From Candidatus Rokuibacteriota bacterium (GTDB lineage: Bacteria; Methylomirabilota; Methylomirabilia; Rokubacteriales; JACPHL01): 7,506 nt of DNA. Within the stretch, counting starts at the first letter, position 1, and every line of letters starts with the position of its first letter. The DNA is taken from positions 1 through 7,506 of the forward strand of contig JACPHL010000137.1 in the NCBI GenBank assembly GCA_016188625.1. Direction: 5' to 3'. Shown here one piece after another: positions 1,017 to 5,943 of this stretch. Below the pieces are notes generated by a model. It did no database searches and was not told the DNA's origin. It saw only the letters and a program-made list of their open reading frames with translations. The position numbers and the translations under genes are program-made.

Positions 1017-1877
1017 TCAGCCTTTCGGCGGGTAGTCGTAGAACCCCTTGCCGCTCTTCCGCCCGAGCTGCCCCGCCGCCACCATCCGCCGGATGAGGGA
1101 GGGCGGGGCGAAGCGCGGCTCCCGGAACTCCTCGAACATCACCTCGGCCACGTGGAGCGTGGTGTCGAGCCCCACGAGGTCCAGGAGGGCGAAGGGGCCC
1201 ATGGGGTAACCGCAGCCGAGCTTCATCGCCTGGTCGATGTCTTCCTTCGAGGCCCCGCCCGACTCGAGGAGGCGCACCGCCTCGAGAAGGTAGGGGACCA
1301 GGAGGCGGTTGACGATGAAGCCGGTGGTGTCCTTGGTGGCGACCGGGGTCTTCCCGAGCGACTCGACGAACCCCCACGCGGCCCGGAAGGCCTCCTCCCC
1401 GGTCAGGATGGTGCGGACCACCTCCACGAGCCGCATCACCGGGGCGGGGTTGAAGAAGTGGAGCCCCAGGACCCGGGCCGGCCGCTTCGTGGCGGCGGCC
1501 AGCTCGACGACGGTGCAGGAGGAGGTGTTCGTCGCCAGGATGGCGTGGGGCGGGCAGAGCCGGTCGAGCCTGGCGAAGGTCTCCTTCTTCAGGGCGATGT
1601 TTTCGGTGATCGCCTAAATGACGAGGTCCGCCTCCCGGAGGTCCTCGAGGGTCGCGCTCCCCCGGAGCCTGCCGAGGAGTGCCTCCCGCTGCCCCGCCTC
1701 GAGCCGCCCCTTCTCGACCAGGCCGTCCAGGTTCCGCCGGATCGCCGCCAGGCCCCGGTCGAGGAGCTCCTGGCTGGCCTCGACCACCGTGGTCGGGTAG
1801 CCGGCCTGGGCCGTGACCTGGGCGATCCCGCCCCCCATGAGCCCGCAGCCGACGACCCCGACCTGCTTGATGGCCAT
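1017..1877 (-). pseudogene. hbd: 3-hydroxyacyl-CoA (3-hydroxybutyryl-CoA) dehydrogenase gene interrupted by an in-frame amber codon
   Basis: One continuous frame of 287 codons encodes a full-length NAD-dependent 3-hydroxyacyl-CoA dehydrogenase (family length ~280-290), except that codon 88 is TAG (minus strand, 1616-1614). Before the stop are the Rossmann motif VGVVGCGLMGGGIA (G10, G12, G15) and E33, the NAD-selective acid. After it, the same frame continues with AITEN, NTSSC (S119), the catalytic HFFNP (H140, N143), E152, the C-terminal dimerisation domain and the terminal GRKSGKGFYDYP. Family members have Glu at position 88 (VIEA-type), so GAG became TAG. Everything else is intact, pointing to a very recent nonsense mutation or a sequencing/assembly error. 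If functional, it would oxidise (S)-3-hydroxybutyryl-CoA to acetoacetyl-CoA. The ATG at 1877 is 13 nt after the upstream Spy-like gene and has only a weak AGGGG ribosome site, so translational coupling is likely. Confidence 0.85.
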
Positions 1878-2521: not shown

Positions 2522-3037
2522 TCAGTCGTAGATGATGAGGGAGGTGATGGGGTAATCCTTGATCTTCTCGCGCCCGCCGAGGAAGGCCAGCTCGATGAGG
2601 AAGGCGACCCCCACCACCATCCCGCCGATCTGCTCGATCAGGCGGAGGGTGGCCGCCATGGTTCCGCCGGTGGCGAGGAGGTCGTCCACGACCAGGACCC
2701 GCTGGCCCGGGGTGATGGCGTCGGCGTGGATGGCGAGGGCGTCGCGCCCGTACTCCAGCTCGTACTCCACCTCGATGGTCTTGGCCGGAAGCTTCCCCAG
2801 CTTCCGGACCGGGACGAGCCCGGCCCCCAGCTCGTGCGCCATGGCCCCGCCGAAGATGAATCCCCGGGACTCGATGGCGACGACGACCTCGACCCGGGAC
2901 TGGATGTAGTTGACCGCGAGCTGATCGACCACGTACTTGAAGGCCCGCGGGTCCTTGAGGAGGGTGGTGATGTCCTTGAAGAGCACCCCCTCGGTCGGGA
3001 AGTCCCGGATCTCACGGATCTTGGCCTTCAGGTCCAT
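2522..3037 (-). CDS. apt: Adenine phosphoribosyltransferase
   Basis: A 171-residue cytosolic enzyme of purine salvage that converts adenine plus PRPP to AMP and pyrophosphate (EC 2.4.2.7). It has the type I phosphoribosyltransferase PRPP loop VLVVDDLLATGGTMAA (114-129). It also has the APT-specific ESRGFIFGG segment (56-64), the N-terminal FPTEGVLFKDITTLL (13-27) and the flexible-loop RKLGKLPAKT (78-87). Length matches the family (170-180 residues). The frame stays open upstream to 3448, but homology begins exactly at MDLKAKI (ATG at 3037), and the longer version would run across the divergent promoter region and the DUF4258 gene, so I chose 3037. The ribosome site is weak (GAAGAG, close to the ATG). 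A plausible promoter lies about 40-70 nt upstream. It heads the minus-strand gene series. Confidence 0.95.
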   Translation of the reverse strand: MDLKAKIREIRDFPTEGVLFKDITTLLKDPRAFKYVVDQLAVNYIQSRVEVVVAIESRGFIFGGAMAHELGAGLVPVRKLGKLPAKTIEVEYELEYGRDALAIHADAITPGQRVLVVDDLLATGGTMAATLRLIEQIGGMVVGVAFLIELAFLGGREKIKDYPITSLIIYD

Positions 3038-5178: not shown

Positions 5179-5916
5179 CTAAGCGAGCAGCCCGAGGAGC
5201 GCAGGGAGATCCACGAAGCGGCGGAGGATCCCCTCCCCCGGCCCGGAGGTCTCAGGACGCCCGTCGGGGAGGTAGAGGAGGGCCCGCATCCCCGCCGTCC
5301 GGGCCCCGGCCACGTCCGCCTCCGGGTCATCGCCGACGTGGAGCGCCGTCTCGGGTCGCGCCCCGACCCTCCCCAGCGTGCGCTGGAAGATCTCGGTGTG
5401 CGGCTTCCGCCAGCCGACCTCGTCCGAGAAGGAGAGGGTCTGGAAGGCGTCGAGGACTCCTGACCGGTCGAGGAGCCGGCGGAGCACCCGCCCGGGGGTC
5501 CGGCCCGAGTTGGAGATGACGGCCAGGGTCACTCCCCGCGCCCTGAGGGCCTCGATGGCCTCGCGGGCGCCCTCGGCGAGGACCGGCGGGTGGTGCAGCA
5601 CGGCGGTCGCGTACGCCTCGACGATCCCCTCGAAGGCGGCGGGCGGGAGCCGCCCGGGGAGGGTCGGATCGAGGCAGGCGAGGAAGAGCGCGGCCTGCTC
5701 GCCGGTCGAGACGTCGCGCAGCCCCCCCCAGATCTCGGCGAGCCGCGCCCCCGAGGCCCTGTAGGCGGCCGCCAGCGCGGCCCGGTCCACCGGGTGGCCC
5801 GCCTCGGCGAGGAGGCGGCCCACTCCCTCGGCGCGCAGGGCCTCGTTGGCGGCGTTGCTCTCGGGGGTCTCCGCCATCAGGGTCCGCCAGAAGTCGAACG
5901 TCACCGTCTCGATCAT
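5179..5916 (-). CDS. HAD-superfamily hydrolase with Trp at the Asp+2 position
   Basis: A 245-residue haloacid dehalogenase-like hydrolase, probably cytosolic. Motifs in order: motif I TFDFWRTL with nucleophile D8; a helical cap from about 15 to 105; motif II VISNSG (S135); motif III K171 in WRKPHTEIF; motif IV HVGDDPEADVAGA with D196 and D197. Motif I carries W10 where classical HAD phosphatases have the second Asp (DxD). The FDFWxTL form is seen in a subset of HAD proteins, so the substrate may not be a simple phosphomonoester and cannot be inferred here. I chose the ATG at 5916 over an in-frame GTG at 5937: GGAAG lies 8 nt before the ATG, MIETVTFDFW is the usual HAD N-terminus, and the predicted promoter would start transcription near 5937. 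It is a single gene facing dgdA and ends with TAG. Confidence 0.85.
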   Translation of the reverse strand: MIETVTFDFWRTLMAETPESNAANEALRAEGVGRLLAEAGHPVDRAALAAAYRASGARLAEIWGGLRDVSTGEQAALFLACLDPTLPGRLPPAAFEGIVEAYATAVLHHPPVLAEGAREAIEALRARGVTLAVISNSGRTPGRVLRRLLDRSGVLDAFQTLSFSDEVGWRKPHTEIFQRTLGRVGARPETALHVGDDPEADVAGARTAGMRALLYLPDGRPETSGPGEGILRRFVDLPALLGLLA

Positions 5917-5943
5917 CGCTCGGGCTTCCGTGACCACCCTTTC

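Follow-up and report, generated by a model that had tools for sequence, protein, structure and literature searches.

A Ser/His/Glu catalytic triad and an HxFxPxxxMxLxE motif have been described for the 3-hydroxyacyl-CoA dehydrogenase family (PMC11476959). The fold of this family has already been solved often, and its many relatives in the PDB include 6hrd, 4kug and 6aa8. Internal stops in bacterial draft genomes often turn out to be spurious, the product of assembly error where coverage is low (PMC11017572). The gene described here resembles the other members of the dehydrogenase family in that it is full-length, contains both domains, retains His140 and Glu152 and lies in a conserved neighbourhood beside the adenine phosphoribosyltransferase gene (apt). 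Unlike them, it carries one in-frame TAG at the position of a family glutamate.

The stretch of DNA analyzed, hereafter the window, is 7,506 nucleotides long and represents a whole contig (C262) of a Rokubacterium draft MAG (G000; 2.6 Mb, 344 contigs, 84% complete) with relatives among Candidatus Rokuibacteriota. The 3-hydroxybutyryl-CoA dehydrogenase gene occupies positions 1017..1877 on the minus strand and is complete save for the TAG. Translation of the frame from 1877 to 1017 reproduced the one given in the earlier note, although its count of 287 codons includes the terminal stop; the protein has 286 residues followed by TGA. The lone internal TAG is codon 88 (1616-1614, minus strand), so that the frame, as assembled, is interrupted at this codon, within the NAD-binding domain. 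When the TAG is read as a residue, the frame matches NF005875 (3-hydroxybutyryl-CoA dehydrogenase) with 367 bits against a cut-off of 319, and both PF02737 and PF00725 are covered end to end, which bears out the earlier description of a single stop with family motifs on both sides. Ser119, His140 and Glu152 are all present 3' of the TAG, as is the HxFxPxxxMxLxE motif. The 87 codons before the stop (1617..1877, minus strand) encode the glycine-rich NAD-binding N-terminus alone, and an 87-residue product would thus be devoid of the Ser/His/Glu triad.

An orthologue of the dehydrogenase was found in nearly all of the 58 relatives searched, nearly always adjoining apt. In the window, apt (2522..3037, minus strand) is the upstream neighbour, an arrangement conserved in nearly all relatives, and the HAD-family hydrolase gene (5179..5937, minus strand) is likewise found near apt in most of them. 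Directly 3' of the dehydrogenase, positions 3-986 contain a fragment of an HpaB-like oxygenase gene that is 82% identical in the related MAG G003; an HpaB-like gene lies near the dehydrogenase in few relatives only.

Codon 88 (1614..1616, minus strand) encodes glutamate in all 45 Rokubacteria relatives that align here without gaps, mostly as GAG and otherwise as GAA, and in none of them as TAG. This comparison of orthologues agrees with the glutamate that the earlier note had expected from the family. The window reads GTC ATT TAG GCG around this site, while codons 87-88 are ATC GAG in both closest relatives. As ATT accounts for only 1.5% of the isoleucine codons in the source genome, ATT TAG is best read as one tandem CG to TT change at 1616..1617 (minus strand), affecting the third base of codon 87 and the first base of codon 88. 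The earlier proposal of two adjacent changes is therefore well founded, and the alignment points to a single tandem event and not to a single point mutation. A search flag suggesting a TAG in common with one relative (G043) was rejected, since the G043 orthologue contains no internal stop; we took the flagged TAG as the G043 gene's own end.

Conservation was assessed over 135 columns in which identity among the relatives reaches 97% or more. Apart from the stop, the window gene deviates at five of these columns (T124V, K149R, P260S, L262I and K263R), fewer than the two closest relatives, which deviate at 9 and 14. The dN/dS between the window gene and its closest relative is 0.10-0.23. Pairwise values to the three nearest relatives amount to ~0.10-0.24 for the part 3' of the stop and 0.19-0.44 for the part 5' of it; pairs among the relatives give similar values. 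Thus, neither the conserved columns nor dN/dS revealed relaxed constraint or further lesions of the kind expected for a decayed pseudogene, and purifying selection has acted on the gene, at least until very recently.

To place the TAG in the context of the whole MAG, 81 contigs or contig parts (the window and 80 more; 735 kb non-N) were scanned for stops flanked on both sides by coding sequence in the same frame, and for shifts of frame without a stop near the switch. An identical scan of 759 kb from two related MAGs (G001, 393 kb; G003, 366 kb) served as control. Frame breaks without a nearby stop numbered 25 in the source MAG vs 2 in G001 and 0 in G003, with some of those counted possibly being gene boundaries and only part having been checked by hand. 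The corresponding rate ratio is ~13 (p ~2e-6, and still ~3e-4 after removal of eight of the 25 breaks), a comparison that may flatter the controls, since most of the test contigs are shorter than those from which the control stretches were taken. In the source MAG sample, three conserved genes contain an internal stop other than a TGA at a cysteine-like position of a redox protein: the window dehydrogenase and livG are interrupted by TAG, and prcA by TAA. For such stops alone, the excess (3 vs 0 in the controls) is not significant (p = 0.12). The sample further contains 8 internal N-runs vs none in the controls, and the same short peptide flanks three of its frame breaks, with exact repeats for two of them; the flanking repeats and N-runs point to joining errors. 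At the TAG itself no short repeat, duplication or join repeat was found, nor any N in the window, and the other window genes are intact. The overall density of close exact repeats was dropped as a measure of assembly error, being 8 per Mb in the source MAG vs 18-22 in the controls.

Several of the damaged genes were inspected individually. The sole copy of metG, encoding methionyl-tRNA synthetase, carries a ~20-bp deletion and a frameshift on contig C226 (L191) near 15,230, while the gene is intact in 12/12 relatives. A live cell cannot do without metG, so this break very probably reflects faulty assembly or an artefact of a minor strain. In prcA, encoding a proteasome subunit (C93:19,834; L178), a garbled GYSY motif ends in TAA and several neighbouring bases are changed, with a GGCTACTCCTAC-like sequence replaced by GGGGACATGTAA; nine of nine relatives have tyrosine at the TAA site. 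The TAG in livG falls at a variable linker site where relatives have other codons, and ~47 bp are missing between livG and livM, which lies upstream of it. Further frame breaks affect an acyl-CoA dehydrogenase and an aminotransferase gene.

Taken together, the window TAG probably reflects local damage to the consensus or the assembly of this low-quality draft MAG, possibly through the merging of close strains, and the gene is probably intact in the organism. This reading is favoured by the excess of lesions in the MAG, which extends to genes that the cell can hardly lack, and by the combination of a tandem two-base change with the lack of relaxed selection. Given that the MAG is rich in local lesions, the same origin as for the metG lesion is the simplest explanation for the window TAG, and we infer that it shares its cause with the other lesions. 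The organism would then possess an ordinary, conserved and intact 3-hydroxybutyryl-CoA dehydrogenase, and merging of closely related strains may have produced the TAG in the consensus. As assembled, the window gene resembles the described spurious pseudogenes (PMC11017572): it is conserved and intact apart from one internal stop, and the assembly to which it belongs has many other frame defects. The candidates that the earlier note had left undecided can now be ranked, with error or strain-mixed assembly first, a real recent nonsense change second and readthrough last; an assembly or consensus error is most likely, rather than new biology. Isolated stops in draft MAGs should accordingly be weighed against the lesion rate of the same MAG before a pseudogene or recoding is claimed. 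Here metG provides a yardstick, as the only copy is broken in the assembly, yet the cell depends on a functional methionyl-tRNA synthetase.

A genuine and very recent nonsense allele, with some or all cells carrying the TAG and making an inactive 87-residue fragment, is possible but clearly the less probable explanation. The stop is clean and lies within an otherwise intact contig, and natural double substitutions in tandem are known. Moreover, the source MAG encodes a second, intact 3-hydroxyacyl-CoA dehydrogenase paralogue (C234:2873-3715), which at 48% identity may cover part of the function. However, the orthologue is kept nearly throughout the order, nearly always beside apt, the remainder of the window gene is undecayed, and lesions of other types abound in the MAG, metG being one of the genes hit.

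Programmed readthrough or recoding of the TAG by a suppressor tRNA, pyrrolysine or another local mechanism, yielding the full-length enzyme, is very improbable. It would fit the purifying selection on the frame 3' of the stop and the second TAG interrupting livG in the same MAG, and an in-frame TAG in an enzyme gene is also what pyrrolysine decoding presents. In contrast to that system, neither PylS nor a CUA tRNA was found for the window genome, and the TAG is not conserved in relatives. TAG terminates 99 of 300 long reading frames in the sample of the source MAG and is therefore an ordinary stop there; the five neighbouring genes that the earlier note had listed as ending in TAG all do so. 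Both a suppressor tRNA(CUA) and other TAG-interrupted conserved genes had been named in that note as pointers to recoding. None of the 29 tRNAs in the MAG, which is 84% complete, has a CUA anticodon, and in the 735-kb sample livG was the only other conserved gene with an internal TAG, at its variable site. PylS gave no match over the curated cut-off in 59 genomes (the incomplete source MAG and the 58 relatives). Since the MAG is incomplete, the absent CUA tRNA on its own is a weak argument, and stop usage is the stronger one against recoding. The interruption of prcA by TAA indicates in addition that interruptions are not specific to TAG. Recoding, already considered unlikely genome-wide in the earlier note, was thus rejected, with stop usage, tRNAs, PylS and the relatives all speaking against it. 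We likewise give little credence to a context-dependent local mechanism that would read through the window and livG TAGs while TAG ends other genes; decoding of the TAG would constitute a new case of context-dependent readthrough, and the evidence is strongly against it. That the two halves work as separate proteins is the least credible of all and was rejected together with a restart, for although both halves retain conserved sequence, the earliest start codon after the stop is a GTG at 1439 (codon 147, as the earlier note had stated), the frame from it (1017..1439, minus strand) lies beyond the catalytic His140, the stop interrupts the NAD-binding domain and no relative is split at codon 88.

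The scans also revealed TGA codons within genes. The source MAG contains a tRNA-Sec gene (C273:1401-1494; L224), and TGA occurs at cysteine-like positions of AhpD-like, GlcF-like, OsmC and AhpC/TSA proteins at L139:4395(-), L163:4883(-), L158:4354(-) and L186:6483(+), the AhpD-like and GlcF-like names being based on motif only, with neither short piece matched by Pfam. We read these as ordinary selenoproteins; a literature search on selenoproteins of Rokubacteria returned nothing useful. In the related MAGs, DsbA-like and AhpD-like proteins have TGA at a redox-motif position, at L243:3842 (G001) and L259:18528 (G003), where it probably encodes selenocysteine. A further TGA in G003, at L261:12939(+), lies in an apparent peptide-binding transporter protein (GEQHW*IIDGAGPWGTGPY) at no obvious cysteine position and is possibly a nonsense change in this control MAG.
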